This document shows, one piece after another, positions 2,329 to 24,692 of a stretch of DNA of 25,043 bases (positions are counted from its first letter, which is position 1; each line of letters starts with the position of its first letter). This DNA is from a virus. The notes beneath the pieces are model-generated. The model saw only the letters and a program-made list of their open reading frames with translations, had not been told where the DNA came from and made no database searches. Position numbers and translations under genes: made by a program. The stretch covers positions 1-25,043 of IMG/VR virus record IMGVR_UViG_3300048586_000902; one strand, written 5' to 3'.

Positions 2329-2901
2329 GTGGAGGAGTTGCTACTCGGCGAGGAAGTCGTTTTTCTTGGCACCCAAGAGGCGCTAGCATCGCACCTCGGG
2401 GTGGAGCGGAAGAGCATTGCCCGGTGGCAAAAGCACAAAGACTGCCCGGGCCGCGCGAAGGAGGGCTACAACGTCAAGGATTGGAAGGCGTTCGTGGAGC
2501 GCAACAACCTGGGCCGGAAGCCTCACAAGGGAAAAGCCGAGCTCGACAACGAGAAGATCGCCCTTGGAAACGAAAAACTGCGCATTCTGAACGCCCGGCT
2601 CCGGGGAGAGCTGGCCAGCCAGGACGAGGTGATCCGGGTGCTCGGGGAAGTGTTTCAGGCATTCGTGATCCAGCTCGGGCAGGCAAAACACACCTTGGCT
2701 CAGGAGGTCGTAGGCATTTCCGAAGGGGAGGCGATCAAGCGGATCGACAAGATCCACAAGGAGCTGCTCGGCGAAATCGCCTTGGGTAACTGGGCTCAAA
2801 AAAAAACTTTCTGGTCGAAGGTCTCTGCCGCTCTATCCGACCTGCACAGGATTCACGGCCTTGGGCGTGGTGCGAGGACAACGATGTCATCGACCTCGTA
2901 A
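2329..2901 (+). CDS. Terminase small subunit-like protein
   Basis: A 190-aa protein starting at GTG behind a G-rich ribosome-binding stretch (GGGGGGA). An N-terminal helix-turn-helix (TQEALASHLGVERKSIARWQ, about residues 16-35) resembles the Nu1-type DNA-binding domain that recognises the packaging site. A long charged helical region (about 65-150) is suited to oligomerisation. It sits directly before the large subunit. The last 31 residues, after an A9 run at 2798-2806, look unlike the rest. Reading -1 from that point gives a sequence that continues into the large subunit, so this ORF may be only one of two products (see the slippery-site entry). Assignment to terS rests on domain order and position. 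Confidence 0.75.
   Translation: MEELLLGEEVVFLGTQEALASHLGVERKSIARWQKHKDCPGRAKEGYNVKDWKAFVERNNLGRKPHKGKAELDNEKIALGNEKLRILNARLRGELASQDEVIRVLGEVFQAFVIQLGQAKHTLAQEVVGISEGEAIKRIDKIHKELLGEIALGNWAQKKTFWSKVSAALSDLHRIHGLGRGARTTMSSTS
2798..2806 (+). other. A9 slippery run, putative -1 frameshift/slippage site terS-terL
   Basis: In the terS frame the run reads CAA AAA AAA ACT, an exact A-AAA-AAA heptamer at codons 157-159. A -1 shift leads into the frame of terL (NFLVEGLCRS and on). GGTCG (2813-2817) can pair with CGACC (2838-2842), a weak stem 6 nt downstream. Nine A's are also enough for transcriptional slippage, and a one-base homopolymer error in the assembly would look the same. Confidence 0.5.
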
Positions 2902-2948: not shown

Positions 2949-4646
2949 ATGGATGGCATGGCGGATCCGACCGTCAACGAGATCATCATCATGTGCTCCG
3001 CTCAGAGTGCCAAGACGTTGACGATGCTGGCGATGCTCGCCTGGATCATCATCGAGGATCCCGGGCCGACTCTGTGGGTTGCGAAATCGAAAGAAGAGGC
3101 GAAAAAGCTCTCCAACATGCGGCTTTATCCGCTGTTGGAGCGGTGCGGGCCGGTAGCTGAGAGACTGCCGGCGAAGGGGCCTCAGCGGAAGACGCTGGAG
3201 CTCTATCTGCCGGGAATGCCGTTGGTGTTAGCCGGGTCTGACACCCTCGCCGCCCTCCAGTCCACCCCCTACCGGTGGGTGTTCTGTGATGAGGCCCGAT
3301 CCTATAAAAAGGGCGTTCTCGGCATGATTTCCAAGCGGTTCCGTTCCTTCGGCGGATCCTACAAGAAAATCGTCATCTCCACCCCGGCCAACGAGGACGA
3401 CGAATTCCACAACGCCTATCTCGCCGGCGACCAGCGCGTGTGGATGGTCCCTTGTCCGGCCTGCGGGAACGAGCATGACATGGACTGGGGAGACCATGAA
3501 ACAGTGGGCGGATTGAAGTGGGACACCAACGAAACCACCTACGACAAGGAGCGTGGCGACTACCGCTGGGACGAGTTGGGGAAAACCATCCGCTACAAGT
3601 GTTGGAATCCGGAATGCAACCATGTCTGGAGGGACAAACCGAGCGAGCGCAAGCCTATCAGCCGGGACGGAAAGTGGGTGAAAACCAACGAAAACGCACC
3701 GTCTAACGTCCGTTCCTATAACTGGAACGCGCTTCTCCCCTACTGGGCGAATTTCGAGCCGCAGGTCCGCGAGTATCTCCAGTCGCTGCGCATGCTGAGC
3801 ACCGGCAACATCGCCCCCTATCGGGACCACATCAACGAGACCCGCGGCCAGGTGTGGAGCGACCACTACGCCTACGCCAAGCACGACAAATACATCGAGG
3901 CCCGCCGGACGAAATACAACCCGCGCGAGATCTGGGAGGAGGAAAAGGAGCGTTTCCTCACCGTCGACGTGCAGGAAAAAGGCGGCCGCCACTACGTGTA
4001 TGTCGTCCGTGCCTGGGCGCTCGGCGGCTGGTCGAGGAAGCTTACCCACGGCATTGCGTGGTCTATCAAGGAGCTTCGCGAAATCGCCGCCGAGTGGAAG
4101 GTCAAGGCGGAGAACGTCGCGATCGACTCCGGTGCCTTCACCTCCGAGGTCTACGGCTACGTCGTCGAGAGCGGCTACAAGTGGAAGGCGCTCAAGGGTG
4201 ATGATAGATGGTCCTTCGTCGTCGAGGGCGAGCATTGGCTTTACCAGGTCACCAAGGCGGATCCCGCCATCGGCACCAAGGAGCAGGGGCGTGTCCGGCC
4301 CATCTCGCTGCGCGTGTGGGCGAACTACGGCACGCTCGACCGCCTGCTCGCCATGATGCACGGTTACGTCGGCAAGTGGGAGCTCGACGACCAGTCCGAT
4401 GACGACGAATACGCCCGCCAGGTCACCGCCAAGGGCCGCCGCAAGAAAACCAACAAAAAGGGCGAAAGCGTCTCCGAGTTCTATAACAAGCGGAAGGATG
4501 ACCACTACTGCGACTGCGAGCAGATGCAGATCATCTGCGCCAGCGGCACCAACCTGTTATCCGCGCCGCTGCCCTTGGAGAAAGCCGCCGAAGAGCGCGG
4601 GGATCACACACCCGACGAGTCGGAAGACCACTCCGAAGACAAGTGA
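2949..4646 (+). CDS. Terminase large subunit, lambda gpA (GpA) family
   Basis: The packaging motor: ATPase plus nuclease that cuts concatemeric DNA and pumps it into the prohead. From the ATG at 2949 (565 aa) the Walker A variant SAQSAKT is at 17-23, Walker B VFCDE ends in D114-E115, and an STPANEDD coupling motif follows. Two Cys pairs (CPAC and CWNPEC) match the cysteine-rich insert of GpA. The nuclease acidic residues are D340 (TVDVQ), D393 (IDSG) and D near DDHYCD. The family N-terminus is missing from this start: the same frame is open from 2790 and encodes FLVEGLCRSIRP, which resembles lambda gpA FVRAGLRSLFRP. No usual start codon lies between the stop at 2787 and 2949. Full length would be about 613 aa if entered from the A9 run. 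Confidence 0.93.
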   Translation: MDGMADPTVNEIIIMCSAQSAKTLTMLAMLAWIIIEDPGPTLWVAKSKEEAKKLSNMRLYPLLERCGPVAERLPAKGPQRKTLELYLPGMPLVLAGSDTLAALQSTPYRWVFCDEARSYKKGVLGMISKRFRSFGGSYKKIVISTPANEDDEFHNAYLAGDQRVWMVPCPACGNEHDMDWGDHETVGGLKWDTNETTYDKERGDYRWDELGKTIRYKCWNPECNHVWRDKPSERKPISRDGKWVKTNENAPSNVRSYNWNALLPYWANFEPQVREYLQSLRMLSTGNIAPYRDHINETRGQVWSDHYAYAKHDKYIEARRTKYNPREIWEEEKERFLTVDVQEKGGRHYVYVVRAWALGGWSRKLTHGIAWSIKELREIAAEWKVKAENVAIDSGAFTSEVYGYVVESGYKWKALKGDDRWSFVVEGEHWLYQVTKADPAIGTKEQGRVRPISLRVWANYGTLDRLLAMMHGYVGKWELDDQSDDDEYARQVTAKGRRKKTNKKGESVSEFYNKRKDDHYCDCEQMQIICASGTNLLSAPLPLEKAAEERGDHTPDESEDHSEDK

Positions 4647-10667: not shown

Positions 10668-10695
10668 TAGTCACGGTGGGGCCTTACGGATTCGC
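10668..10695 (-). repeat. Family-2 oriented repeat, copy 2
   Basis: TAGTCACGGTGGGG plus CCTTACGGATTCGC; 2 mismatches in 28 to the copies at 17361 and 17447. In gene direction its CCGTAA provides the TAA stop of the 137-aa gene. Confidence 0.8.
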
Positions 10696-11336: not shown

Positions 11337-12337
11337 CACGCGAAAATCTGGTGGTTTTTCACGACCCATTGCGTGTAGGCGGCGCTGGCGGAGAGGCTCG
11401 GATCGCGGCCGGTGGCGTCGCGGGCGGCGAGCACCTCGTATTCCTTGGGCAGGCGTTCCAGGTAGGTGATGATGTTGCCGAAGTTGGCGACAGTCGCCTT
11501 GTGGGCGAGCGCGCAGGCCACGGCTACCGTTAGGGACGGGTCGCCGGTCGGGACGTGGGCGGTGTGCGGATTGGCGATGATGGCTTCCAGATCCGGGATG
11601 GAGCGCCAGATTTTGAGAAACGCGGTGAACTCGGTGGCAAAGCCCTCGCCGGCGGCTCCGGCGATGATTTGATAGTCCTCGATGCCGCTCGCCACCCACT
11701 TCCCCACGGCCTCGACGGTGCGCGGGCAGGGTGAGTTCTTTAGCTCGCGGGTGGCCTTGAAGTCGTTGAGCAGGTTCGGCCGGAAGCGGATGAAGGCGAC
11801 GAGCTGCGGCGGGATCTTGGACTGGAGTGCCCAGGCCACCCAGTCGTCCACGTCGCATTCGAGCGTGAGGATGGTGTCCCAGCGGCTTTTCACCGGCTCC
11901 AGGATGGAGGAGACGCCGGCCATGTGGCTGGAATCGTTGGTGGCACCGGCGAAGACGACGTGCGGGGAAATCTTCTGCCCGTCCACCTCGCGGGCGTGGA
12001 TGAGCTGCATGAGCGCGGCCTGCACGGCGTGCGGTGCCTGGCCGATGTCGTCGATGAAGCAGACGGTGAGCGCGGTGGCCTCCACGAGCTTGCGCAGGTT
12101 GCCGAAGGGCAGGAACTCGGCGAGCGACTTGGTCCCTTGCTTGACCACGGCGGGCATGCCCTTGAAGTCGGTGGGATCGGACACGGCGGGGTGCATCACG
12201 ACCAGGTCCGCCTCCGCCATCTTGGCGGCGAGCTCGACCAAGGCGGATTTCCCGACTCCCGGACTGGAAACGAGCAGGACCTTGAGGTTGTTGCGGAAGG
12301 CGTGGCTGAGGATGCGGATGATGGCGGTTGGTTTCAT
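11336..12337 (-). CDS. MoxR-type AAA+ ATPase
   Basis: A 333-aa AAA+ ATPase starting MKPTAIIRILSHAFRNNLKV. Walker A is SSPGVGKS (24-31), Walker B TVCFIDD ends in D96-D97, and sensor 1 is GATNDSS. Length and motif spacing fit the MoxR branch, whose members act as chaperone or remodelling ATPases together with VWA-domain partners such as the one encoded at 9251-10408. The open frame runs upstream to 12433, but that part crosses the operator, parS and repeat sequences, so the start at 12337 is chosen. No clear Shine-Dalgarno is seen. It heads a coupled run of genes going left. The operator-like sequence shared with the RHH region lies 21 bp upstream. Confidence 0.9.
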   Translation of the reverse strand: MKPTAIIRILSHAFRNNLKVLLVSSPGVGKSALVELAAKMAEADLVVMHPAVSDPTDFKGMPAVVKQGTKSLAEFLPFGNLRKLVEATALTVCFIDDIGQAPHAVQAALMQLIHAREVDGQKISPHVVFAGATNDSSHMAGVSSILEPVKSRWDTILTLECDVDDWVAWALQSKIPPQLVAFIRFRPNLLNDFKATRELKNSPCPRTVEAVGKWVASGIEDYQIIAGAAGEGFATEFTAFLKIWRSIPDLEAIIANPHTAHVPTGDPSLTVAVACALAHKATVANFGNIITYLERLPKEYEVLAARDATGRDPSLSASAAYTQWVVKNHQIFA

Positions 12338-12357
12338 GGTGCGGATGTGGTGGCGAT

Positions 12358-12374
12358 TGTATGCATTTGTATGC
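12358..12374. promoter_or_regulatory. Operator-like sequence identical to the RHH-region operator
   Basis: TGTATGCATTTGTATGC, 17 of 17 identical to 1507-1523. On the minus strand it contains TACAAA and TACAAT, possible -10 boxes for the MoxR operon, though no good -35 box is evident. Confidence 0.6.
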
Positions 12375-12397
12375 GAAGGCAAGAAAAAAGGCGCGCT

Positions 12398-12413
12398 TGT
12401 TCCACGTGGAACA
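12398..12413. other. parS-type ParB-binding palindrome
   Basis: TGTTCCACGTGGAACA, a perfect 16-bp palindrome (18 bp with flanking T/A), identical to the classical chromosomal parS form TGTTNCACGTGNAACA. It lies between the clamp/DUF3150-like genes and MoxR, about 60 bp upstream of the MoxR start. No parA or parB gene is in the window, so if functional it would bind host ParB or one encoded elsewhere on the element. Confidence 0.7.
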
Positions 12414-12432
12414 ATTTGTAACGCGGCGGGCA

Positions 12433-12446
12433 CCCTTGCGTAAGGG
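12433..12446 (+). repeat. Family-1 near-palindrome, copy 6 (CCCTTGCGTAAGGG)
   Basis: An exact copy in the intergenic region upstream of MoxR, between parS and a family-2 element. Confidence 0.85.
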
Positions 12447-12450
12447 CATC

Positions 12451-12480
12451 AGATAGTCACGCTGAGGGGTTACGGATTCA
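12451..12480 (-). repeat. Family-2 oriented repeat, copy 3
   Basis: AGATAGTCACGCTGAGG, then GGTTACGGATTCA. It is 4 bp from the family-1 copy 6 and upstream of the MoxR operon. Confidence 0.8.
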
Positions 12481-12513
12481 GGCGGCGGGCGGAATAAATT
12501 CCGCGCTCCAATT

Positions 12514-13380
12514 TCACGCCGCCGCTTCCAGCGGCTCCATCCACGGCGCGAGGCTGGCGAGGATCTGGTTGGCCTCGGCGGCGGCGCGGGTGCGGTCGGA
12601 GCGGGATTCGCGGAGGGTGTCGGGATCGAGCTGGGCGAGGCCGCGGTGGATGCGCAGGCGCACGTCCTCGAGCGCGGGATCGTCGGTGACGTTGAAGGCG
12701 GGGATGGCGCCGGCGATGGTGCGGATGTTGTCGATGAGCGAGTCCTTGAACTTGCAGTCCGGATCCGACAGGCGCTCGACGATGCGGACCAGCGGCTCGG
12801 AAATGCGGGCGACCAGGTCGTTGCGGGCGACCTTGCCGGCCTCGACCAGCCTGTCGTCCAGGATGGCCTGCATTTCCCGCATGTCGCCGGCGGAGAGGGA
12901 CACGCGGAAGTCGTCGCGGTGGGGGACCGGCTGGGCTTCCACGCGGAAGGTGAAACGGGCGGCGGCGGTGGCCACGTCCGGATACTCGGCCGGGCGGTAG
13001 AGTCCCTGCCGCATGTTCGCGGCCTCCTGCAGCCAGTGGGCGTAGCGGCCGATGAAGTGATCCCGGATGATGGCTTCCCGCTCCGGGCGGCGATCGCGCA
13101 TCACCTGCATGTACTCGTCGAAACGGGCGGTCGGCAGAATGCGCAGCGAGTTGTCCAGCCAGGAGAGCGTCATTTCCCGGTGCAAGCTGCCGGTCTTGGC
13201 GTCGTGGCGGGCGATCGGGTCGATGGCCTCCTTGGTCCAGAGGCGGGACACCCAGCGGCCGGCGTCGTCCTTGGCGGCATTCGCGCGGAGGACGGAGGCG
13301 GTGACGCCCTGGTCGGTGCGGGAGGTGGTGAGGCTGGTGAGCGTCAGGTCGATGAGGATGGCGCGGTCGTGGAGGGACAT
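12514..13380 (-). CDS. DUF3150-like protein, possible MoxR/VWA system component
   Basis: A 288-aa protein starting MSLHDRAILIDLTLTSLTTS. Features such as LRILPTARFDEYMQ, a helical middle, YRPAEYPDVATAAARFTFRV and PVPHRDDFRVSLSAGDM recall the phage and plasmid DUF3150-type proteins found next to MoxR and metallopeptidase/VWA genes. The assignment is from memory of the pattern and not a scored match. It is largely helical in the C-terminal half. It lies directly upstream of the MoxR gene and downstream of the clamp, all on the same strand. The frame is open further upstream, but that part is a GATC-type repeat and not protein-like. Role unknown. Confidence 0.7.
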   Translation of the reverse strand: MSLHDRAILIDLTLTSLTTSRTDQGVTASVLRANAAKDDAGRWVSRLWTKEAIDPIARHDAKTGSLHREMTLSWLDNSLRILPTARFDEYMQVMRDRRPEREAIIRDHFIGRYAHWLQEAANMRQGLYRPAEYPDVATAAARFTFRVEAQPVPHRDDFRVSLSAGDMREMQAILDDRLVEAGKVARNDLVARISEPLVRIVERLSDPDCKFKDSLIDNIRTIAGAIPAFNVTDDPALEDVRLRIHRGLAQLDPDTLRESRSDRTRAAAEANQILASLAPWMEPLEAAA

Positions 13381-13426
13381 GGTGGGAAGAGGTGAGAGTC
13401 CAGAGTCAAGAATCCAGTGGGAGAGG

Positions 13427-14599
13427 TCAGACGGCAGCGGGCTCTTCGAGATCCGCCGGATCTGACTGATCGGCCGGATCTGACTGATTTTCTGTCTCAG
13501 GTTCTGCGGCGGCGGCGGCCTCGGTGACCCGCATGGGCATGAGGACGTAGCGGGTGATGCCATCGGTGAGGACGCCAGGCTCGCGCTCGGAGTTCATGTC
13601 GATGGTCTGGAGTCCCATGGCGAGGGCATCGGCGAGGAACTGCGGATTGAAGGCGATGAAGTCCGGCACGGGGCCGGAGAGCAGCGCGGGCACGCTGGTG
13701 GAGGTGGCGTCGTCCGTCGTTTTCACGGTGAGGGTGACGGTCTGCGGGCCGAAACTCAGGTTCACGGAGGTCCTCTTGTGGCGGCGCAGCCAGGTGATGA
13801 GGGACGGCACGACGGCGGTGGGGAAGGTGCAGGAGCTGGTGAAACTTTGCGGGATCACCTGCCGGTAGTTCGGGAAATTCCCCTCGATGAGCTTGAAGGT
13901 GATGCGGACGGTGGGGAAAACGAGAAGGGCGAGGCTTTCCGTCCGTTTCCAGATGGCGGCAGCCTGGCAGAGTGGATCCACCAGCAGGTCCGCCACCGCA
14001 TTCGGCAGGATGGAGTCCGGGGCGGGCACGCGGACGCGGGCGGTGGCGAGGCGGCGGCCGTCCGTGGCCACCACGTTTCCACCATCCGCCGCGGTGAGGA
14101 ACACGCCCTGGAGGACGTAGCGGGTATCATCGGCGGAGGTGGCCGGCCGCACCTTGCGGATGGCATTGAGCGAGGCGACGGGGAAGATCACCGGCTTGCC
14201 GTCGATCTCGGGGCAGGGCGGGAATTCTCCCGGTGCCAGACCGGTGACGGTGCGCTCGGTGCGCAGACCCTTGGTGACGGAGGCCAGCGTGACGGCGTAG
14301 GCATCCTCGCACGCCATCGGCGCGTCCAGCCGGACCACGCTGCCCTTGTCGGCGGCGCTGGCGAGCTTGAAGAACTCCGGGCGGGGCAGGGTGAAACTGC
14401 CGGGCGTGGTGGGGCCCCCGATGGGCAGCGTGACGGCGAGGTGCACGTCGAGATCGGAGGTTTCCAGCAGCACCTCCGGCTTGCCTTCGGTGACGGTCAG
14501 GCGGACGTGGTCCAGGATCGGCAGCGTGGAGCGGAACTTGAGGCGGCGGAAGAGCCCCGCCACGGGGCGGATGGCATCGGCGGATAGAGTGAGAGTCAT
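13427..14599 (-). CDS. dnaN-like: DNA polymerase III beta-like sliding clamp
   Basis: A 390-aa processivity clamp that would encircle DNA and tether polymerase and other partners. VVATDGRRLATARV (177-190), EGNFPNYRQVIP (239-250) and the C-terminal YVLMPMR (352-358) are DnaN hallmarks, and the length to that point fits the family (E. coli 366 aa). About 32 extra residues follow MPMR, including QSDPADQSDPADLEEPAAV, encoded by a GATC-rich repeat. In DnaN the C-terminus borders the partner-binding cleft, so the tail may modulate binding. No polymerase gene is in the window, so the clamp probably serves a host or distant phage polymerase. Start ATG at 14599; no clear Shine-Dalgarno. Confidence 0.93.
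   Translation of the reverse strand: MTLTLSADAIRPVAGLFRRLKFRSTLPILDHVRLTVTEGKPEVLLETSDLDVHLAVTLPIGGPTTPGSFTLPRPEFFKLASAADKGSVVRLDAPMACEDAYAVTLASVTKGLRTERTVTGLAPGEFPPCPEIDGKPVIFPVASLNAIRKVRPATSADDTRYVLQGVFLTAADGGNVVATDGRRLATARVRVPAPDSILPNAVADLLVDPLCQAAAIWKRTESLALLVFPTVRITFKLIEGNFPNYRQVIPQSFTSSCTFPTAVVPSLITWLRRHKRTSVNLSFGPQTVTLTVKTTDDATSTSVPALLSGPVPDFIAFNPQFLADALAMGLQTIDMNSEREPGVLTDGITRYVLMPMRVTEAAAAAEPETENQSDPADQSDPADLEEPAAV
13450..13489. repeat. GATC-rich interspersed repeat at the 3' end of the clamp gene
   Basis: Two units of CCGGATCTGACTGAT-type sequence, in frame, encoding the SDPADQSDPADL tail. The copy at 21871-21916 is in opposite orientation. Confidence 0.6.
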
Positions 14600-14631
14600 G
14601 GGAATGTGGATGGTTGGGAGTTGATAGGAAT

Positions 14632-14943
14632 TCAGGCGATGGGAATGATGGAGATGTGGCCGGTGTCGAACTCCACGCGGACGTGGGTGGCGGGCTGGGG
14701 GAAAAGGCGCGGGACGATGGCCCCGGTGATGTCGATGATTGGCTTGTCGGCCTTGCCGGAGACCTTGAACTGGCCCGCGCTGCCGGTGGCGCGCAGGAGG
14801 ATGAGTCCGCCGAGTTTGGATTCCACGCGGTCGTAGCGATCGCCGACGTTGAATCCGGCGGCCTTGAGGTGTCGGCCCTCGATCCAGATGCGTTGATGCG
14901 GCACCTTGCGGGCCGGTCCGATTTTCGTTTGTTGCGTGTGCAT
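14632..14943 (-). CDS. SymE/AbrB-like small protein
   Basis: A 103-aa protein starting MHTQQTKIGPARKVPHQRIW. The core IWIEGRHLKAAGFNVGDRYD followed by short strands resembles the SymE toxin pattern (a hydrophobic strand, then W/HL-xxAGF-xxGD), which has the SpoVT-AbrB swapped-hairpin fold. SymE proteins act on RNA; the AbrB relatives bind DNA. It may be a regulator of the following clamp operon or a toxin-like protein; no antitoxin is obvious. The start at 14943 is chosen because sequence upstream runs into the hairpins and the family-1 repeat. The repeat ends 24 bp upstream. Confidence 0.65.
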   Translation of the reverse strand: MHTQQTKIGPARKVPHQRIWIEGRHLKAAGFNVGDRYDRVESKLGGLILLRATGSAGQFKVSGKADKPIIDITGAIVPRLFPQPATHVRVEFDTGHISIIPIA

Positions 14944-14966
14944 GAGCGTTAGGAAGATGTTGGAAA

Positions 14967-14980
14967 CCCTTGCGTAAGGG
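14967..14980 (+). repeat. Family-1 near-palindrome, copy 7, with extended arms
   Basis: CCCTTGCGTAAGGG flanked by AAA and TTT, so the inverted repeat covers 14964-14983 with 8-bp arms. It is upstream of the SymE-like gene. Confidence 0.85.
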
Positions 14981-14983
14981 TTT

Positions 14984-15071
14984 GCCCTTGCCCCGCCGCA
15001 GGCCTCAGAAACCGGGCGGCGGGACAAGGGCGGCTATGAGCACCCTTACATGCCGGGAGGCGTGACCTCCC
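14984..15071. other. Consecutive strong hairpins, possible structured RNA
   Basis: GCCCTTGCCCCGCCG (14984-14998) pairs with CGGCGGGACAAGGGC (15017-15031) with one mismatch in 15. GGGAGG (15055-15060) pairs with CCTCCC (15066-15071). No T-run follows the first stem on either strand. Together with the terminator at 15082 this makes about 130 nt of stacked structure upstream of the SymE-like gene. Confidence 0.45.
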
Positions 15072-15077
15072 ACCGCC

Positions 15078-15111
15078 GAAAGGCCCGCCTCCCCGGGACG
15101 GGAGACGGGCC
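15078..15111 (-). terminator. Probable terminator after the 58-aa gene
   Basis: GGCCCG-C-CTCCC (15082-15093) pairs with GGGAG-A-CGGGCC (15100-15111), loop of 6 nt, one mismatch. On the minus strand only TTTC follows, so it is a weak intrinsic terminator. Confidence 0.5.
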
Positions 15112-15149
15112 GGCGGCCGGTTGTTATCGTGTGTGCGGCGGGGGAAAGG

Positions 15150-15326
15150 TTAGGGCTTGATGTAGGCGTTCAGGCCGATGACGACCGGCTTGCCGTCGAC
15201 CATGGCGGAGGTGGTGACGTTGCCGCTGGAGCTGGCGACGACGAGCGTCTTGCCGGACGCGGACGGACGGGGCTTTTCCAGTGGGATTTCAATGCAGAGT
15301 TTGTTGTCTTTGATAGTGACGATCAT
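15150..15326 (-). CDS. Small conserved-looking protein (58 aa)
   Basis: Starts MIVTIKDNKLCIEIPLEKPR. The pattern of an IEIPLEKPRPS strand, SGKTLVVASSSGNV and a short C-terminal VVIGLNAYIKP resembles a small beta protein family common in phages and plasmids, without known function. It stands alone between two terminators (15380-15411 upstream and 15078-15111 downstream), so it likely has its own promoter or is read through. Confidence 0.75.
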   Translation of the reverse strand: MIVTIKDNKLCIEIPLEKPRPSASGKTLVVASSSGNVTTSAMVDGKPVVIGLNAYIKP

Positions 15327-15379
15327 GACGGTGGTGGTTTGATTTTCTGGTGGAAGACGCGGATGGCGGGCCTTCACAC

Positions 15380-15411
15380 AAAAAAAGCCCGCTCCGGTTA
15401 GGGAGCGGGCT
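15380..15411 (-). terminator. Rho-independent terminator after the 304-aa gene
   Basis: AGCCCGCTCC (15386-15395) pairs perfectly with GGAGCGGGCT (15402-15411), loop of 6 nt, followed on the minus strand by T7 and GTGTGAAGG. The same flank follows the terminator at 16469. Confidence 0.9.
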
Positions 15412-15501
15412 GGAGTCATGAGTTGAATGGTTACTTGATTTTCATGGGTGGTGGTTTCGGGTTGAAGCCGTTTCCGGCGGAGATCCATCGACGGGTGTCA
15501 A

Positions 15502-16416
15502 TTAGGCGGCGACCGCCTCACTGGACTTTTTTGCGTTGTCGATGCTGGAGTCCAGCAGGTCCACCCACTCGGCGAGCTTGGCGCGGACGGCGGCGAGGCC
15601 ATCCGGATCCAGATCGTAGGATTGCAGCTCGAGCTCGTCGATTTTCGCCAGCACTTCCGCCGCGTTGTTCGGGCGGGATTCGTGGCTGGACGGCGGCGAG
15701 GTGGTAGAACCGGCAGCGGGGACCACGGTGAGCGGCGCCGGGGTGGTGGTGGCAGGCGCGACCGGTGCGGTGGCGGTCACTTCCGGAGTTTCCTTCGTGC
15801 CGTCGACCACGACGGTTTCAGGTTCCGTCGTGGCGGCCGGAGTGGATTCGGTGGCGGGCGGAGTCACCACGGCGGCCGCGGCGGCGGCGGCATCGGCCAC
15901 GCGCTTTTGTTCCGCTTTGTCCGCGGCGTCCTTTTCCGCTTTTCCGGCGATGGACAAGCCGTGCTCGTCCAGCGAGTCCAGCTCGTCGCCGATGGCGGCT
16001 TTCTGGCCGTCATTCAGGAGCGGGGCCAGCGTCTCCGGCGAGAGCTTCACGGCGGACTTGCCGGAAATCAGGCGGGCGCACTGGTTCACAATCCGATAGG
16101 TGATGATCTCGTCGGCGCGGGCCTCCGTGACCAGCCCGGGCGTGACAAAGGCGGTGATGAATTTTTCGACCAGGCGGGCGTTGTTCACGGAGGATTCCGG
16201 CACACCGCGCTTGGCGAGCAGGCCGTAGACGGTCTGGCCCTTGGGGATCCCGGAGCGGTTTTCGACGTGCCAGACGAGCTTGCCCATTTCCACGAAGGAA
16301 CGGGCGCGGGATTGATAGCGGTCGGCGACACCGTCGACGGCTTGAGTAGTGGAAAGCCCGGCGATTTCCTCAAGGGACAGCACGGGGACGGCGGGGGCGG
16401 CTTTTTTCTTGGACAT
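15502..16416 (-). CDS. Hypothetical protein (304 aa) with Ala/Thr/Pro-rich linker
   Basis: Not recognised. Starts MSKKKAAPAVPVLSLEEIAG. The N-terminal half (about 15-160) is helical and folded-looking, with GIPKGQTVYGLLAKRGVPES and YRIVNQCARLISGKSAVKL suggestive of a helix-turn-helix or DNA-related domain. Residues about 185-260 are a low-complexity Ala/Thr/Pro linker (VTPPATESTPAATTEPET). The C-terminus (about 262-304) is a probable coiled coil (EVLAKIDELELQSYDLD). It is a single-gene unit between two strong terminators (16469-16503 upstream and 15380-15411 downstream), with promoter probably in 16417-16468. The architecture would suit a DNA-binding scaffold; this is speculative. Confidence 0.75.
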   Translation of the reverse strand: MSKKKAAPAVPVLSLEEIAGLSTTQAVDGVADRYQSRARSFVEMGKLVWHVENRSGIPKGQTVYGLLAKRGVPESSVNNARLVEKFITAFVTPGLVTEARADEIITYRIVNQCARLISGKSAVKLSPETLAPLLNDGQKAAIGDELDSLDEHGLSIAGKAEKDAADKAEQKRVADAAAAAAAVVTPPATESTPAATTEPETVVVDGTKETPEVTATAPVAPATTTPAPLTVVPAAGSTTSPPSSHESRPNNAAEVLAKIDELELQSYDLDPDGLAAVRAKLAEWVDLLDSSIDNAKKSSEAVAA

Positions 16417-16468
16417 GGTGGTAGTGATTTTGCAGTTAGGAGTTGGCGGGCGGGAGTGCCCTTCACAC

Positions 16469-16503
16469 AAAAAAAGCGGCGGGTGAGTGAATCACCCGCC
16501 GCT
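16469..16503 (-). terminator. Rho-independent terminator after the 254-aa gene
   Basis: AGCGGCGGGTGA (16475-16486) pairs perfectly with TCACCCGCCGCT (16492-16503), loop of 5 nt, then T7 and GTGTGAAGG on the minus strand. Confidence 0.92.
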
Positions 16504-16526
16504 TGGCGTTTCCTGCTAGGCTTGCA

Positions 16527-16540
16527 CCCTTACGCAAGGG
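16527..16540 (-). repeat. Family-1 near-palindrome, copy 8, containing a stop codon
   Basis: In gene direction CCCTTGCGTAAGGG; CTT GCG TAA gives the -LA ending and stop of the 254-aa gene, as in copy 3. TTTCCTGCTAG (16509-16519) lies beside it and recurs at 17527-17537 beside copy 9. Confidence 0.85.
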
Positions 16541-17294
16541 CTCTATCGGAAAGAGCTTGCATGATTTCCGCCGCAAGGCTTGGCGGTGCTTGGCGATTCG
16601 CCCGCAAGGCCTGCGCACCCTTGGCGAGATAGTCCATAAAGCGGCTTTTCCGGGTGTCAAACGTGCCGGAAGTCATGGCGCGGCCGGTGCGTTCCGTGAG
16701 GTGGCCAAGCACGATCAGGAAAAAATCCCGCTGCGAACGGAACGCGGAAACGGCCTTGCGGGATTCATCGCAGGAAAACGCGGCGCGAAGCGTGCGCATG
16801 ATTTCCTTGGCCATGTCCCGCTGCGAAGCGGAAAGCCGTTTCTCGAATTCTTCAAACTCCGTGCAAAAACCCACCTTGGCGGCGACTCCGGCGGCGTCGT
16901 CCGTGCCATACTCCCAAGTACAGCGGAGACGGAGACAAGCGCGGGAATTGATCGCGTTCCGGATGGCTTTGAAAATCGCGGGAGTGGCGAATCCGTGCTC
17001 GAAAAATCCGCTTTCCACGCATGCCGCAAACCCGGCGGCCTCAGCGTCCATCTTGTCAGTCGGCGAGAGGGGAAACGGATCGCCATACTTGGGAAACTCC
17101 ACCCGGCGAATCACGGATTTGATTAGACGCTCCGCGACTTTCACCCGTTCCTTGGGATCCGTCCAGCCATCGGCGCGCTGGTGGAATTTTTCGCGCGTCG
17201 CCTTGGCTTTCGCCTTGGCGCGGTTGCGGAGTGCAATTTGACGATCGCGACAGACTAGCGGCGCGGTGGGGGTAGTGCTTGGGGTGGTGCTCAT
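16530..17294 (-). CDS. Hypothetical protein (254 aa)
   Basis: Not recognised. Starts MSTTPSTTPTAPLVCRDRQI. The N-terminus is basic (RNRAKAKAKATREKFHQRAD). The middle has several Cys (AACVESGFFEHG, RACLRLRCTWEYG), and the C-terminal third is helical (SRFMDYLAKGAQALRANRQA), ending SDRALA with its stop in the family-1 repeat. A candidate promoter (TTGCAA, 17 bp, TAAATT) lies directly upstream and would give a nearly leaderless mRNA. A strong terminator follows. Confidence 0.75.
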   Translation of the reverse strand: MSTTPSTTPTAPLVCRDRQIALRNRAKAKAKATREKFHQRADGWTDPKERVKVAERLIKSVIRRVEFPKYGDPFPLSPTDKMDAEAAGFAACVESGFFEHGFATPAIFKAIRNAINSRACLRLRCTWEYGTDDAAGVAAKVGFCTEFEEFEKRLSASQRDMAKEIMRTLRAAFSCDESRKAVSAFRSQRDFFLIVLGHLTERTGRAMTSGTFDTRKSRFMDYLAKGAQALRANRQAPPSLAAEIMQALSDRALA

Positions 17295-17303
17295 GGCGGG
17301 GTG

Positions 17304-17332
17304 AATTTACGATTTCTGAGGGAGACTTGCAA
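17304..17332 (-). promoter_or_regulatory. Candidate promoter of the 254-aa gene
   Basis: On the minus strand, TTGCAA (17327-17332) and TAAATT (17304-17309) are separated by 17 bp, each matching 4 of 6 consensus bases. The predicted start of transcription is only a few nt before the ATG at 17294. Confidence 0.35.
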
Positions 17333-17360
17333 GTTTCGTTTTCACGCTTTCGCGTTATTT

Positions 17361-17402
17361 CCGCTTGCATGAGATAGTCACGCTGAGGCCTTACGGATTC
17401 GC
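17361..17402 (-). repeat. Family-2 oriented repeat, copy 4 (42-bp direct repeat)
   Basis: Identical over 42 bp to 17447-17488, from CCGCTTGCATGAGATAG through TCACGCTGAGG to CCTTACGGATTCGC. Confidence 0.92.
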
Positions 17403-18645: not shown

Positions 18646-20412
18646 ATGAGCGAAAGCGAAAGCCTGCAAGATATGAGAGAGCGCCGGCAGTTGTCGACGG
18701 TGGATAAGGCGATTTCCTTCGTATCCCCCAAGTGGGCGCTGCAGCGGGTGGTGGCGCGCGAGCATCTGCATGAGTTCGCCGCGGTGAAGCACAGCAAGGC
18801 CCGCGGCCGCCCGGCCACGCTCAACGACCAGGGCTCCTCGGAAAGCTGGCGGAAACAGCGCGAGCGGATCGACGCGATGATGGAAGGCCGCGAGATGGAG
18901 GAGAATTTCTGTGTCATCGCCGGACTGCTCCAGAAGCTCGGCCTGCACATCGCCGGCCAGCTCGAATACCAGCCGGAAACGGGCGACGACAAGATCAACG
19001 CGGAGTATGCCGAGTATTTCCACGACTGGTGCGGCCGCGCCGACTACGCCGGTCGCCACCGGTTCCGGACCATGGTCCAGCTCGGGGTGCAAAGCGCCAT
19101 CCGGGATGGCCAGCACGGCTGGGTTGAAAAGATCGTCGACGGCGAGCTGCGGCTCCAGATGATCGAGGGCGATCGCATCGGCAATCCGCAGAATCCCTCC
19201 CAGGCGGATGAGAAGAACATCAACGGCATCGTCATCGACGACAAGGGCGCGATCCGTCACTACGAGATCTACAAGCGCACGCGGACCACGCAGTATGAGA
19301 AGGAAAACGACGTCACGCCGGACGACTTCATCCACCTGTTTTTCCCGAACCGCACGGACCAGTATCACGGCGTCTCCAAGCTCGCCCCGGCGCTGCCGCA
19401 CGCGCGGGACCTTTACGAGCTGCTAGGGTATGAGAAGATCGGCGCCAAGTTCGCCGCGCAGTTCGCCGGGTTTGTTAGGACCAAGGACGTGGGCGCGCCG
19501 GGCTCCACCGACTGGAACGAGTCCACGCCCGGCAGCGGCCTGCCTGCCAGCATGAAGGCGCAGGCCGGCACCGTGCTCAAGCTGGAGAACGGCGTGGAGG
19601 ACATCGAGTTCGCGCCCGGCGTGCAGCGGCCTAGCGGGGCGTTCATGGCGCTGCTGGAGGCGCTCATCCGGGAAATCGCGCTGGCCATGAACCTGCCGTA
19701 CGGCTTCGTTTACAACCTGGCCGCGCTAGGCGGGGTCACCGCCCGGCTGGAAACCCAACAGGCACAACGCACCTTCCGCTGGTATCAGGAAATCCTCGAG
19801 CACATCCTGCTCAACCGGGTGAAGCGCAAGGTCTTGTTATTTGCGATTGCCTCCGGCCGCCTGCGCGCCTGCAAGAACTGGAACAAGGGCAGCTGGCGCT
19901 ACGGTCAGACGCTCACCGGCGACATCGGCTTCCAGGTGCAGGCGGACCTCGACCTCGTCAAGGGCGGCTACAAAACCCGCAGCCAGCTCGCGGCGGACTA
20001 TAACAACGACTTCGCCCAGGTGATGGACCAGAAGGGATCGGAAATCCAGATCGCCATGAAGGTGTCCAAGCGCACCGGCGTGCCCATCGAGCTGCTTCTA
20101 TCCGACCTCGACAACCCGACCGCGCTCATCGCCGCGCTGGAGCGTGCCAAGTCCGGCGATCCGGATCCGGCAGCCGGCCCGCCGCCGCCGCCCGGCCTCA
20201 TCGGCACGGTGGGGGACAAGGGTGTGAAGTCCCTGCTCGACATGGTCATGGCCGTGAACCGCGGCGAGATGGACCGGGATAGCGGCATCAACACCGCCAT
20301 GATTTCCTACGGCATGCCGTTCCAGGACGCGGACGCGCTGTTCCCCAAGAACATCGTCGTGCCGCCGGTGGCGGATGCGCCGAACAAACCCGATAGAAAG
20401 AAAAAGCCATGA
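18646..20412 (+). CDS. Phage portal protein, lambda gpB family
   Basis: A 588-aa portal protein that would form the dodecameric DNA-entry ring at one head vertex. ENFCVIAGLLQKLGLHI, VQLGVQSAIRDGQHGWVEKI, MIEGDRIGNP, PDDFIHLFFPNRTDQYHGVS and REIALAMNLPYGFVYN follow the order of lambda-type portals. The C-terminal 60 residues are Pro- and Lys-rich (PAAGPPPPPGLIG, then DRKKKP). The ATG at 18646 is preceded by AGAGGC. The stop overlaps the start of a 54-aa membrane protein gene as ATGA. Confidence 0.94.
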   Translation: MSESESLQDMRERRQLSTVDKAISFVSPKWALQRVVAREHLHEFAAVKHSKARGRPATLNDQGSSESWRKQRERIDAMMEGREMEENFCVIAGLLQKLGLHIAGQLEYQPETGDDKINAEYAEYFHDWCGRADYAGRHRFRTMVQLGVQSAIRDGQHGWVEKIVDGELRLQMIEGDRIGNPQNPSQADEKNINGIVIDDKGAIRHYEIYKRTRTTQYEKENDVTPDDFIHLFFPNRTDQYHGVSKLAPALPHARDLYELLGYEKIGAKFAAQFAGFVRTKDVGAPGSTDWNESTPGSGLPASMKAQAGTVLKLENGVEDIEFAPGVQRPSGAFMALLEALIREIALAMNLPYGFVYNLAALGGVTARLETQQAQRTFRWYQEILEHILLNRVKRKVLLFAIASGRLRACKNWNKGSWRYGQTLTGDIGFQVQADLDLVKGGYKTRSQLAADYNNDFAQVMDQKGSEIQIAMKVSKRTGVPIELLLSDLDNPTALIAALERAKSGDPDPAAGPPPPPGLIGTVGDKGVKSLLDMVMAVNRGEMDRDSGINTAMISYGMPFQDADALFPKNIVVPPVADAPNKPDRKKKP

Positions 20413-20586: not shown

Positions 20587-23500
20587 ATGAAAACCACCCT
20601 CACCAAAGGCAAAAAGCTGCTCAAGAAACTCACCGACAAGGCCGCCGGCACGCGGGTGGGCAGGCAGGTGATGAAGATCCCCGCGCCCATCCGCAAGGGC
20701 TACGCCGCCGGGCTGCTGGTCCCCGTGCCTGGCGCGGGCGAGGTCGGCGCGCTGGTGGGCACCGGCGTCTGGGCCAAGGGCAGGCTGGAGCGCGCCGTCA
20801 CCGCCCGCACCGGCCAGCCCTATCGGATGTTCGACACGCCCGGCCGCCTGCTCGTCGAGCTGATGGCCACTTGGGACGGCAAGAGCGGAGGCACCGCCAG
20901 CCCCAAGCTGGACGGAGTCTATGCCCGGGCGACCAAGGACGGCGTCTTCTCCAGGAGCGGCAAGCCGCTGGACCTGCCGCACGTCTCCTCCCGGCTCAAG
21001 CGCCACTTCCGGAAAAATCCGGATGCCGTGCTCGAGGGCGAGGTTTTCAAAAAGGGCGAGGGCATCGAGAAAATCGCCGGTGCCGTGAAGTCGGGTGGCG
21101 TGGCGACCAAGCACCTCAAGCTGCACCTTTTTCCCAAGGACGGCGAGAAACGGCCGTGGTCCATCGGTGCGGTGCGCCGCGTGCCTGGCAAAAAAGTGAC
21201 GGATGCCGCGGGCGTCCAACAGGTTTTCCAGAAGGCGCTCAAGCGCGGCCATGAAGGCGTGGTCGTGCGCGGCGCGGACGGCACGCCCGCCAAGCTCAAG
21301 CCGGTGCAGGACGCCGAGTGGGAGGTGGCGCAGGTCCACGGCGGCCCGCGCGGCGTGCTCGCGCTCAAGCACGGCGACCGCACCTTCAAGGTCCAGTCCA
21401 AGCCCGGTCTCACCGCCAAGGCCGGCGACAAGGTCCAGGTGACTTACAGCGGAACCACCAAAAAGGGCGTACCCAAGGCCGCCGTCGCACAACGCGTTAG
21501 AAACGACCACGATTTTGAAACCATGAAACCACCGACTCCATTCCAGACTCCCGCCATGTTGCTGCTAGGCGACGCGTTTCCCACTCCCGACCCTTGCGTA
21601 AGGGCCTTCCGGCTTCGCGCTGCTACGCCGGGACAAGTCGACCTCGCCCGCGGCGAGACCACCGAGGAGGAAATCGCCCGCGACCGCCGGACGCTCAAGC
21701 GCATCGCCGCCGGTGCCGCCGTGGCCGGTGGCGTCGCGGCCACCGTGATTCACAAGGGCCGCACGCCCAAAGTGGTGCCAGTCGCGAAACCGCCCGTGAA
21801 ACTGAAAAAGCCGGTGAAAACCTACTGGGGCATGAAGCCGCCACCCCGGGTGAAGGTGAAGCTGGAGGCCGGAAAAATCGGACAGATCCGTCAGATCGGC
21901 CGGATCCGACCGATCTCTTTGGAAGAAAAGCGCGACCCCCTATCAAAAGCCCGGGATGCCACCATCATCGCCGGCACCGGTGCCGTGGGTGCCGGTGCCC
22001 TGGTCACCGCCCACCAGGCGCGCAAGCTGCGGAAAAAGGCAGACGCCGCACTCGGCCATGCCAGCAGCGCCGTGGCGCGCACCGCCAGGCAGGTCCGCGA
22101 GACCGTCACCCCCAAGGCGGTGGCGCATGAAGGCCTCAAGCTGGTGAAGGACAAGGCCAAGTCCAAGGCGGTCGAGTATTTCCCGACTTTTACCAAGGGC
22201 ATCCGCGCGCTCAAAAAAACCGTTTTCCAGACGCCTGCCCAGCGGCTCATGGACTTCAGCGCGCTTTCCGGCAGCAAAGCCATCACCCGTGAGGCGCTTG
22301 GACTGGCTCCGCGCAAGGTGGTGCCGGTGTTGAAGACGGTGAAGAAACCGCCTTTGTTCGAGGTGATCAACCGGAAGACGAAGGAAGTGGTGGGTCACGG
22401 GACGTCGAAGCACTCCGCCAGGCGCGTGAGAGACCGCCGGGACAACGAGTATGGCGGATACGCACACTCGGTCCGGGAAATCGCGACGGGTAGGTCTTTC
22501 CAGACTCCGGCCCAACAGATGGGGCTCTTCAACTTCGCCACCGCCACCGCAGACCCCAAGATCCGCGACAGCCAGCGGCGTTTCGTGGACCATTGGGACG
22601 TGGCGGCCGGTCTGAAAAAAGGCTACGACGCCACCGGCGCGGAAGCCAAGGTCGGCATGGGTGACGCCGCGGTCATCAAGTCGCTCTATCGGAAGGCGAA
22701 CACCGTGAACAAATGGGGCGGCCGCGCCGGTCGCCTCACCAAGGACGCCGCAGACGTCGTGCGCGGCGTGCCCCGGGCCCGCGACACCAGCGGGCGGAAG
22801 AAATCCCGCGAGTGGGAGAAGGGCTGGGCCAAGGACGCGGCGAAGAAGGCGCTGCTCGTCGGCGGCGGCATCGCTTACGGCATCGGTTTGAAAAAAAGCC
22901 CGCGCCTGGCGGCTACCCATCACCGGGTGGTCGGCGCGGCGAAAAAAGCGGGCCGCGAGGTGAAGGACGCCATCAGCAATTTCGAGACTCCCGCCGCGCG
23001 GATGGGGATTTCATTCGGAATATCGAACATCGAACATCCAACATTGAACTTCGAACGGAAGAGGAAAGAAGACAACTCCGCCGCCATCAAGGCCGGTCTC
23101 GGCGGTGCCGTGGCGGGTGGGGCGAACGGCGCGCTCATCGGCAGTCTCAGCGCGGCCGGATCCAAGCAGGCGGACGACTACTTCGGCATCCTCAAAAAGC
23201 GCGAGGCCCGCGGCCATGGCGGCGGCGTGATGGTGGCCCCCAAGAAGCCCTCCGCCCCTTTCAAGGCCAAGGGGAAATTCAACAACGCCGAGAAGATCGC
23301 CCGGGCCGAGCACAACTCGCTGCAAAACATGAAGAAAGTCATCCGCCGCCGGTCGATCGGCGGCGGCCTGGCCGGTGCCGCGCTGCTCGGAGGTGCAAGC
23401 TACGCCGTGACCAAGACGGCGGAGAAAAAGCGCTTCTCCACTCCGGCGAGTGGGATTCTGCGCCAGATGGAAACCAGCGACGGTCACAGACCGCCGCTAC

Positions 23501-23769
23501 AGTTCGACGAAGTCGCTGCGGACGCCGGCTGGGACATCCGGGATCCGCGCGGCAAGTCCGCCCGGGTCTTCGCCCCCGGCTCCCGCAAGCGCGTGCGCCG
23601 GGAAAAATCCTGGAGCGAGGAAGTCGGCAACGAGCGCAAGCTCTGGAAAGCCGGCGTCGTCGGCGCGGCCTTGCTTGCCGGTGCCGGGGGAGTCGCCATC
23701 GGCCGCCGGCTGCCGAAAAAGGGCTTCAAGAAAGTCGAGTCCATCGACAGCATCCGGAAGCGGGCCTAA
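20587..23769 (+). CDS. Giant multi-segment protein with embedded ATP-dependent DNA ligase and FxTPA repeats
   Basis: 1060 aa from the ATG at 20587 (MKTTLTKGKKLLKK). Residues about 95-310 are an ATP-dependent DNA ligase: motif I SPKLDG with nucleotidylated K107, SRSGKPL, motif III LEGEVF (E150-E152), motif IV EGVVVR (223-228), motif V AKLKP (K236/K238), then an OB-type domain (about 242-310). The rest is not enzyme-like: seven Gly/Ala-rich hydrophobic segments (about 40-63, 373-389, 458-475, 755-767, 836-858, 925-941, 1024-1039) alternate with basic stretches. A motif F-x-T-P-[AG] occurs at F82, F319, F547, F638, F799 and F950. It occupies the place of protease/scaffold genes of lambda order. 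A virion-internal or ejected protein is the best guess. A family-1 repeat and two other repeats lie in frame within it. Confidence 0.85.
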   Translation: MKTTLTKGKKLLKKLTDKAAGTRVGRQVMKIPAPIRKGYAAGLLVPVPGAGEVGALVGTGVWAKGRLERAVTARTGQPYRMFDTPGRLLVELMATWDGKSGGTASPKLDGVYARATKDGVFSRSGKPLDLPHVSSRLKRHFRKNPDAVLEGEVFKKGEGIEKIAGAVKSGGVATKHLKLHLFPKDGEKRPWSIGAVRRVPGKKVTDAAGVQQVFQKALKRGHEGVVVRGADGTPAKLKPVQDAEWEVAQVHGGPRGVLALKHGDRTFKVQSKPGLTAKAGDKVQVTYSGTTKKGVPKAAVAQRVRNDHDFETMKPPTPFQTPAMLLLGDAFPTPDPCVRAFRLRAATPGQVDLARGETTEEEIARDRRTLKRIAAGAAVAGGVAATVIHKGRTPKVVPVAKPPVKLKKPVKTYWGMKPPPRVKVKLEAGKIGQIRQIGRIRPISLEEKRDPLSKARDATIIAGTGAVGAGALVTAHQARKLRKKADAALGHASSAVARTARQVRETVTPKAVAHEGLKLVKDKAKSKAVEYFPTFTKGIRALKKTVFQTPAQRLMDFSALSGSKAITREALGLAPRKVVPVLKTVKKPPLFEVINRKTKEVVGHGTSKHSARRVRDRRDNEYGGYAHSVREIATGRSFQTPAQQMGLFNFATATADPKIRDSQRRFVDHWDVAAGLKKGYDATGAEAKVGMGDAAVIKSLYRKANTVNKWGGRAGRLTKDAADVVRGVPRARDTSGRKKSREWEKGWAKDAAKKALLVGGGIAYGIGLKKSPRLAATHHRVVGAAKKAGREVKDAISNFETPAARMGISFGISNIEHPTLNFERKRKEDNSAAIKAGLGGAVAGGANGALIGSLSAAGSKQADDYFGILKKREARGHGGGVMVAPKKPSAPFKAKGKFNNAEKIARAEHNSLQNMKKVIRRRSIGGGLAGAALLGGASYAVTKTAEKKRFSTPASGILRQMETSDGHRPPLQFDEVAADAGWDIRDPRGKSARVFAPGSRKRVRREKSWSEEVGNERKLWKAGVVGAALLAGAGGVAIGRRLPKKGFKKVESIDSIRKRA
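21591..21604 (+). repeat. Family-1 near-palindrome, copy 11, inside a coding region
   Basis: CCCTTGCGTAAGGG read through in frame as part of DPCVRAF (gac cct tgc gta agg gcc ttc), about 40 bp after the second FxTPA motif. It is the only copy clearly within a gene and may mark an old gene boundary. Confidence 0.85.
21871..21916. repeat. GATC-rich interspersed repeat, in frame
   Basis: Encodes GKIGQIRQIGRIRPIS in the giant protein. On the opposite strand it resembles the clamp-gene copy at 13450-13489. Confidence 0.6.
23016..23057. repeat. GAACATCGAACATCCAACAT-type interspersed repeat, in frame
   Basis: Encodes SNIEHPTLNFE right after the fifth FxTPA motif. Such GAACATC/CAACATT arrays are, as I recall, common intergenic repeats in Verrucomicrobia and relatives; here one is captured in a coding region. 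Confidence 0.55.
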
Positions 23770-23813: not shown

Positions 23814-24692
23814 ATGAATCTCACCAAGTCCAGCGCCAGCATCGGGTTGTTTGCCACCGCCACTCCTACCGCTCCGGGAGCGACCGGAAAAGTGAACCTT
23901 GGCGCTCCGGCAGAGACCGTCAATCTTCCGGACGGTCAAATCCAATACGATGTGGTGGCTGTGTTCGCGGCGGCTGCGGCAAATCTGGTGCTGGATCTGA
24001 GCATCAACAGCACCACCGGATCCACCGCCTGGGTGGCCGGAGTGGCACAGGTGAAGACCGCCACGGCGGCGGGCAGTGTGACTGCTAACGGAAATTGTTC
24101 CGTCATCATCACGGCGGCCGGGATGATCGGATCTCCCAAGACATTCAATGTGCCCGTGCTCGCGGGAGACACGCCCTCCGTCTGGGCGGGCAAGGTGCGC
24201 ACCGCCCTGGCAGCGGATTTTTACGTCAGCGAGATGTTCACCGTCTCCGGCGCGGGAACCTCCATCGTACTTACCCGCAAGCCGCTTGCCACCTACAAGG
24301 TTCCCGGCGGCACTCTCAATCTCTACGCCGCGAACGATGCCACGCTCAACATCGCCCTCGCCACCGGCACCGCTACCGGCATCACCGCCGCGCCGACTGC
24401 CGCCAGCACCACTGCGGGCGTGGCGAGTGCCGGGGTCAAAATCTATGGCGGCGCGGGCAAGGACTTCGAGGGGAACGCCCTCGACAGCATCAACGGAATC
24501 TACGGCTTGCTGCTGCGCTCGGAAGAGGTGGCGATTACTGCCGATGGTTCGGGCACCGACCTTTTCCGCGTCAACTCCGGAGAATCTTTCCTCAAGGTTT
24601 CCGCAAGCGAGCTGCTGCTGGACACCTCCTACACCTTCACCTCGGGATCGCGGGGCAAGCTCTCCATCACGGTTCTGGCAGGCGGCTTTTAA
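23814..24692 (+). CDS. Phage structural-type protein (292 aa), beta-rich
   Basis: Starts MNLTKSSASIGLFATATPTA behind a good ribosome-binding stretch (GGTGGGGG). Composition (Ala, Thr, Gly, Ser, few charged residues) and repeated strand patterns point to a virion surface or tail protein. The segment SVIITAAGMIGSPKTFNVPV, LAGDTPSVWAGKVRTALAAD and MFTVSGAGTSIVLTRK looks like a domain seen in phage tail tube and decoration proteins, from memory. The position two genes after the portal suits a decoration or major tail protein; no HK97 capsid motif is evident, so the capsid gene is probably downstream. Confidence 0.75.
   Translation: MNLTKSSASIGLFATATPTAPGATGKVNLGAPAETVNLPDGQIQYDVVAVFAAAAANLVLDLSINSTTGSTAWVAGVAQVKTATAAGSVTANGNCSVIITAAGMIGSPKTFNVPVLAGDTPSVWAGKVRTALAADFYVSEMFTVSGAGTSIVLTRKPLATYKVPGGTLNLYAANDATLNIALATGTATGITAAPTAASTTAGVASAGVKIYGGAGKDFEGNALDSINGIYGLLLRSEEVAITADGSGTDLFRVNSGESFLKVSASELLLDTSYTFTSGSRGKLSITVLAGGF

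Follow-up and report, generated by a model that had tools for sequence, protein, structure and literature searches.

A predicted minimal DNA ligase as an exchangeable cassette of a modular, putatively packaged protein encoded beside a phage portal gene

Why should a DNA ligase be encoded among the virion genes of a phage, buried within a protein of 1060 residues? The question is raised by the gene that comes next after the portal gene in a 25,043-base virus record (IMG/VR record IMGVR_UViG_3300048586_000902; this whole stretch of DNA is referred to below as the window). The record includes an integrase gene and probably belongs to a temperate lambda-like tailed phage of Verrucomicrobiota. An earlier note, made from the sequence alone, had read the product of this gene (20587-23769) as a capsid-packaged ligase that is delivered along with the genome. 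That interpretation is likely but incomplete, because comparison with homologues shows the ligase to be only one of the interchangeable items in a modular cargo system. The explanation favoured here, to which a probability of about 60% is given, is that the product is an internal virion protein of the modular, 'polyvalent' type whose cassettes are joined by a phage-specific peptide, and which would be packaged, its ligase being ejected together with the DNA; packaging, cleavage, ejection and ligase activity are what we infer from sequence and gene context. The features on which the argument leans are the following.

18646..20412, plus strand: lambda-family portal protein (PF05136, E=6e-40; phrog_21; 73-77% identical in loci L002 and L005)
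20587..23769, plus strand: modular, basic, Gly/Ala-rich putative internal virion (cargo) protein of 1060 residues with the ligase cassette; homologues occur elsewhere
20587..20829, plus strand: conserved N-terminal module, residues 1-81 (KIPAPIRKGY..VPVPGAG..GTGVWAK..RTGQPYRM), 62-65% identical to the L002 and L005 homologues and ending at the first boundary motif
20881..21513, plus strand: ligase cassette, residues ~99-309, a nucleotidyltransferase (NTase) plus OB core with motifs I-VI and no DNA-binding domain (matched by phrog_114, the L022 cassette and Lig E profiles)
20905..20916, plus strand: ligase motif I, KLDG, with the candidate adenylated Lys107 (KxDGxY instead of KxDGxR)
23503..23652, plus strand: conserved C-terminal block, residues ~973-1022 (FDEVAADAGWDIRDPRGKSARVFAPGSR..NERKLWK), the family signature, with 63-92% identity in 13 viral loci and one bacterial prophage

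The ligase core that the earlier note had listed (KLDG, EGE, EGVVVR, KLKP and an OB domain) is borne out by the ordered succession of motifs KLDG (residues 107-110), SRSGK (122-126), EGE (150-152), EGVVVR (223-228), KLKP (236-239) and RVRND (303-307), and by a match of the PHROG family phrog_114 (ATP-dependent DNA ligase) covering residues 99-309 (E=2.1e-17). The Pfam ligase models match the 1060-residue protein weakly, with E values of 0.004-0.009 that lie below their own cut-offs, and a search of the PDB with the whole protein as query gave no match. When a profile of the two known cassettes, that of the window and that of locus L022, was compared with the PDB, three minimal Lig E-type ligases were retrieved (8u6x, E=3.6e-8), and the first nine Foldseek matches obtained with a low-confidence model of the cassette were all ligases. 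When four phage ligases or ligase-like proteins are aligned with the cassette, no variation is seen in the catalytic Lys, the Asp and Gly, both Glu residues, the motif IV Arg and the motif V Lys. Judged in this way, residues 99-309 constitute a minimal ATP-dependent DNA ligase. Its closest known counterparts are the Lig E enzymes (8u6x, 6gdr, 4d05), which share the NTase plus OB core devoid of a DNA-binding domain and supply the best profile and Foldseek matches (PMC6144786); unlike them, stand-alone proteins with a periplasmic export signal, the window core is shorter and embedded behind an 81-residue conserved module.

The remainder of the protein has a character of its own. The reading frame is open from 20500 (TTG), and the ATG at 20587, which gives 1060 residues, agrees with the start of the L005 homologue. 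The product is strongly basic (isoelectric point 10.8, Lys+Arg 20%) and rich in Gly and Ala (25%), and it contains exactly seven Gly/Ala-rich hydrophobic segments, beginning at residues 41, 373, 459, 752, 838, 924 and 1022, the same number that the earlier note had counted.

The fusion is genuine. An assembly artefact or a chance joining of two genes might be suspected of a window that is a single metagenomic record; this explanation is practically eliminated by L022, an independent contig in which the same fusion lies 3' of a homologous portal gene, with a homologous ligase (phrog_114, E=3.5e-16; 55% identical to the window cassette over 209 residues) and a homologous C-terminal block. Searches of viral contigs with the full-length protein or the portal as query gave one or two relatives only, L022 was the only match to the ligase cassette, and a genome scan with the portal block gave none. 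The C-terminal block (AGWDVRDPRGKSARVFAPGSR), used as query, led to eleven more viral contigs and to a prophage of Verrucomicrobium sp. BvORR034; further homologues came from two genomes of the same order as Verrucomicrobium. The family is rare in the sampled genomes, with matches in 2 of 388 genomes of the phylum and 4 of 387 of the order (both figures include the Verrucomicrobium genome), and in two weaker matches, L038 (G138) and L039 (G704), a homologous open reading frame was not recognisable. Among about 14 distinct homologues the ligase is present in two. Recurrence of the fusion, which the earlier note had suggested looking for in related prophages, is limited to L022 among these homologues; the Verrucomicrobium prophage homologue has no ligase. 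In the homologues of L002 (892 residues) and L005 (1032 residues), the N-terminal sequence PYRMF continues directly past what in the window are residues 83 to ~306. The existence of relatives without the ligase marks it as accessory, and by these comparisons it is one exchangeable cassette of a family whose other members have unrelated modules or none.

What holds the modules together is suggested by a short peptide, F-x-T-P-[AG], which occurs six times in the 1060-residue protein, each time between modules, and which is followed by hydrophobic residues and then often by F. The ligase cassette sits between two of the copies. Neither this motif nor the lack of the ligase in most homologues had been remarked on in the earlier note.

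20830..20862, plus strand: boundary motif copy 1, FDTPGRLLVEL, residue 82
21541..21573, plus strand: boundary motif copy 2, FQTPAMLLLGD, residue 319
22225..22257, plus strand: boundary motif copy 3, FQTPAQRLMDF, residue 547
22498..22530, plus strand: boundary motif copy 4, FQTPAQQMGLF, residue 638
22981..23013, plus strand: boundary motif copy 5, FETPAARMGIS, residue 799
23434..23466, plus strand: boundary motif copy 6, FSTPASGILRQ, residue 950

The peptide differs from phage to phage. In group A (the window, L002, L005, L018, L022 and L036) the strict form F-x-T-P-A gives 19 matches, all of them in cargo proteins, where shuffled genes would lead one to expect 0.34. In group B (L013, L015-L017, L020 and L021), whose tag in its short form is [FL]SAKLR, the pattern [FL][SA][AS][KR][LIF][RK] gives 33 matches against 0.61 expected, again confined to cargo genes, upstream and downstream neighbours included, and this pattern has no match in group A. 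A third form, FSxxGRII, was identified by eye in L037. That the tag goes with the phage and not with the cassette is indicated by the LLWRG module, which is followed by NFSTPAQRMG in L005 and by NFSAKLR in L016. Synonymous codons differ between the window copies, indicating that selection acts on the peptide; a DNA-level repeat is thereby ruled out for the window. The copies also mark where modules come and go: a site that is empty in L017 holds two different inserts in L020 and L021, each lying between two motif copies. None of 100,000 random placements brought the edges of relocated or inserted modules as close to motifs as observed, a figure that is overstated, since the borders of two segments out of the six were drawn in the knowledge of where the motif lies.

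Two further kinds of short sequence were noticed. In-frame repeat-like insertions occur at module linkers, some of them splitting a boundary motif, in window protein P0001 (residues 429-441, 813-823 and 964-972; GKIGQIRQIGRIR, SNIEHPTLNFE and SDGHRPPLQ) and in the cargo genes of L005 and L015-L021 (SGKREAESGKR; HRGHRGHGG). A second repeated peptide is found in the gene that follows the cargo gene in L005:5160-6818 and L002:6617-7855 (LEAILARYDF, DLGAILERYDF, GFEAVLGRYDF; LSAILDSYDF, FSAIVDSYDF), and this RYDF/SYDF type is possibly another boundary tag.

The modules found in place of the ligase are diverse. The Verrucomicrobium sp. BvORR034 prophage homologue, of 891 residues, bears an LRAT domain (PF04970, E=1.6e-5, which passes the cut-off); this homologue was recorded at both L011 and L023, 7637-10309, with an LRAT-type motif NNCQHW. 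In L037 a DUF6321 domain (E=1.4e-14) is accompanied by an N-terminal ParB-like module (VVDGHH), and the latter stands mid-protein in L015, behind the block that it precedes in L037 (44% identity, 3e-32). The LLWRG module is part of the L005 protein and a separate gene in L016 (37%, 4e-32), and one module of the L016 protein recurs in L017, L020 and L021, with 72-82% identity, as part of a separate gene further downstream. An upstream gene in L013 combines a GNAT-like module (E ~0.001, below the cut-off) with a HELIH stretch, and genes of L021 contain HEGGH and HEAGH stretches; the GNAT, ParB and zincin labels are based on motifs and weak matches. The LLWRG cassette has no meaningful Pfam or PDB match and its structure model is unusable (predicted local distance difference test, pLDDT, 35); that it is an ADP-ribosyltransferase is a guess. 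Extra cargo genes were also seen between the portal gene and the main cargo gene (L021:3251-5485, L013:2732-3730 and L016:3567-4541), and these may carry modules of ADP-ribosyltransferase-like (YHGT), HExxH, GNAT-like and DUF5872-like types; in L021 one module is repeated both within and between cargo genes.

As regards gene context, the loci that extend far enough share the order portal, cargo, in some cases a second cargo, putative prohead protease/scaffold fusion and major capsid protein. The protease was assigned from the pattern WNH...GLSA, which is conserved, and from a weak match in PHROG (E=0.044). The earlier note had placed the gene between portal and structural genes; the portal stands upstream as stated, and the structural role of what lies downstream is predicted from synteny in relatives only. 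The putative protease-scaffolds of L002:8041-9237, L005:6927-8135, L015:14736-16037 and L018:12245-13357 have in common a C-terminal [VL]xFSA[GE] segment, which resembles FSA, the letters with which the group B boundary peptide begins.

The genuine, recurring fusion and the conserved virion-gene context make a capsid-packaged, genome-delivered ligase the most likely reading. Since each phage uses one form of the peptide throughout, in several cargo genes, and other phages use other forms, a reader acting in trans is the simplest explanation of it. The peptide would be read by the head-assembly machinery, the candidate readers being the scaffold or the capsid, for targeting, the protease, for cleavage, or both. 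Modules would be taken up into the procapsid, perhaps being cleaved through the tag, and the basic cargo, once packaged, would leave together with the DNA. After that the minimal ligase could close nicks of the arriving genome immediately, with no need of the host ligase. Because the lambda-type terminase of the window suggests cohesive ends, these nicks could be the two left at cos after the ends anneal, which a carried ligase could seal at entry; nicks made by host defences are an alternative source. A bolder form of this proposal holds that the peptide is a code for both packaging and cleavage, that the product is a polyprotein of separately delivered enzymes, that cassettes are inserted at the code, and that the ligase seals the genome before any phage expression; it is put forward tentatively, as something short of an even chance.

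The general idea that phages package and inject multidomain proteins is already known from the 'polyvalent proteins' of Iyer, Burroughs, Anand, de Souza and Aravind (2017), which are large, multidomain, encoded near virion late genes and predicted to be packaged and injected, such a virion-gene context being typical of phage proteins with that predicted fate; in the parts of the paper compared here, Verrucomicrobia prophages and recombining cassettes are also noted (PMC5512222). The likeness extends to the virion-gene neighbourhood and to an overlapping repertoire (ADP-ribosyltransferase, GNAT, ParB-like and HExxH peptidase modules). However, the main text of that paper names RNA ligases only and no DNA ligase, and the sections covered describe no repeated phage-specific boundary peptide across cargo genes (PMC5512222). 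Polyvalent proteins also typically, if not obligatorily, contain a zincin-like metallopeptidase, and the same sections ascribe their processing to this internal enzyme (PMC5512222), whereas inspection of the 1060-residue sequence found no HExxH.

Precedents for addressed cargo exist as well. The P1 Dar proteins (DarB, DdrB and DarA) are internal head proteins co-ejected with the DNA (PMC9024508, PMC12810830), and the N-terminal 30 residues of DarB suffice for capsid targeting (PMC9024508). In T4, as cited in the latter source, a short capsid targeting sequence directs internal proteins into the prohead, with proteolytic processing (PMC9024508). DarB (ORF 10) is numbered beside the portal (ORF 11) and the prohead protease (ORF 12) of P1, a neighbourhood like that of the cargo gene. 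It has a single N-terminal targeting region, whereas the motif of the cargo family recurs at module boundaries, the two being compared by description and not by sequence. The T4 tag is likewise single and N-terminal, and its motif differs in sequence from the boundary peptide. No phage ligase described as ejected cargo was found in open-access titles and abstracts. Within the literature covered, a DNA ligase among polyvalent-type modules and a repeated phage-specific boundary peptide common to several cargo genes appear to be new. If the proposal is right, circularisation or repair of the genome could be pre-loaded in the particle, though the host ligase is usually credited with sealing lambda-type ends, and the boundary peptide would act as a brief, portable address by which enzymes are brought into a phage head. 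In the loci examined, cargo genes are marked by the motif, so that whatever lies between its copies is a candidate delivered module, which could offer a way to discover injected enzymes.

Several observations weigh against this explanation. The capsid genes of the window phage fall past the contig end, and the AlphaFold model of the ligase is poor (pLDDT 51). The motif I Arg is replaced by Tyr (KLDGVY) in both the window and L022 cassettes, and the core is ~30-40 residues shorter than phage ligases between motifs IIIa and IV, so that activity may be altered. Contigs within a group are closely related, notably in group B, and the motif counts are therefore not independent; L022 has no clear copy right after its ligase, no motif is clearly repeated in the L011 homologue, and the two flanking copies of the downstream gene in L020 do not differ at the DNA level, so that a recombination role of the motif DNA is possible there. 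In addition, the ligase is the sole recognised enzyme domain of the 1060-residue protein, while polyvalent proteins combine several disparate domains in one polypeptide; here the other modules are spread across the family and neighbouring genes. The changes in the core might point to a degenerate or repurposed nucleotidyltransferase that acts, for instance, on proteins or RNA instead of sealing DNA. This is quite improbable, given that Lys107, Glu152, Glu223, Lys236, Lys238 and the RVRND end of the OB domain are retained and that all the best matches are DNA ligases; the loss of the motif I Arg is not decisive, as it is missing too (KLDGFC) in the ligase-like protein of Caulobacter phage C1.

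Other readings accept the enzyme and change its setting. A structural or pilot protein, in which Gly-rich hydrophobic segments form an ejection conduit across the envelope and the ligase is a passenger, is compatible with packaged cargo and would account for the segments being conserved features of the family, five to fourteen of them in every main cargo protein with or without an enzyme cassette, one of which weakly matches the glycine-zipper 2TM model (E=0.017). As the account of the gene it is unlikely, because cassette turnover and the boundary motif extend to neighbouring genes, some without hydrophobic segments, which indicates that the motif system concerns cargo and not a channel. The architecture had reminded the earlier note of ejected virion proteins that cross the envelope with the DNA; the ligase is no integral part of such a machine but a removable cassette, and other members carry unrelated modules or none. 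The ligase might instead act in the producing cell, mending nicks in DNA at the portal or prohead with no delivery to the next host, in keeping with a gene that adjoins the portal in the packaging-head block and with the failure to recognise another ligase in those window proteins that were searched; that close relatives do without a ligase, their versions of the protein system bearing unrelated modules, suits a packaging-specific role poorly, making this reading distinctly unlikely. Very improbable is a MuF-like polymorphic toxin system, with antibacterial cassettes delivered by virions or released at lysis and accompanied by immunity genes. MuF toxins (Jamet et al. 2017) are similarly encoded right after the portal in temperate phages and have variable enzymatic domains (PMC5576092), and L021 contains a possible ADP-ribosyltransferase-like module (PF18760, E=0.11, not significant). 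However, neither MuF domain (PF04233 or PF06152) was matched by Pfam in the 1060-residue protein or the tested homologues, the cassettes occupy internal as well as C-terminal sites, and a DNA ligase is not an obvious toxin.

The rest of the window fits a phage of the lambda type in which the packaging module is split.

2329..2901, plus strand: terminase small subunit (phrog_57, E=9.6e-9)
2949..4646, plus strand: large terminase of the lambda GpA type (PF05876, E=1.4e-34; phrog_15)
23814..24692, plus strand: gene of 292 residues downstream of the cargo gene, with no family match and no homologue detected in the compared loci

The GpA-type terminase suggests cos-type packaging. The two genes 3' of the cargo gene gave no matches in family searches (Pfam, PHROG). 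Between the terminase and portal genes lies a minus-strand, replication-type block (5409-17370), an unusual split of the packaging module, and this block includes a sliding clamp (13427-14599) and a DUF2201/phrog_1314 protein (9251-10408).

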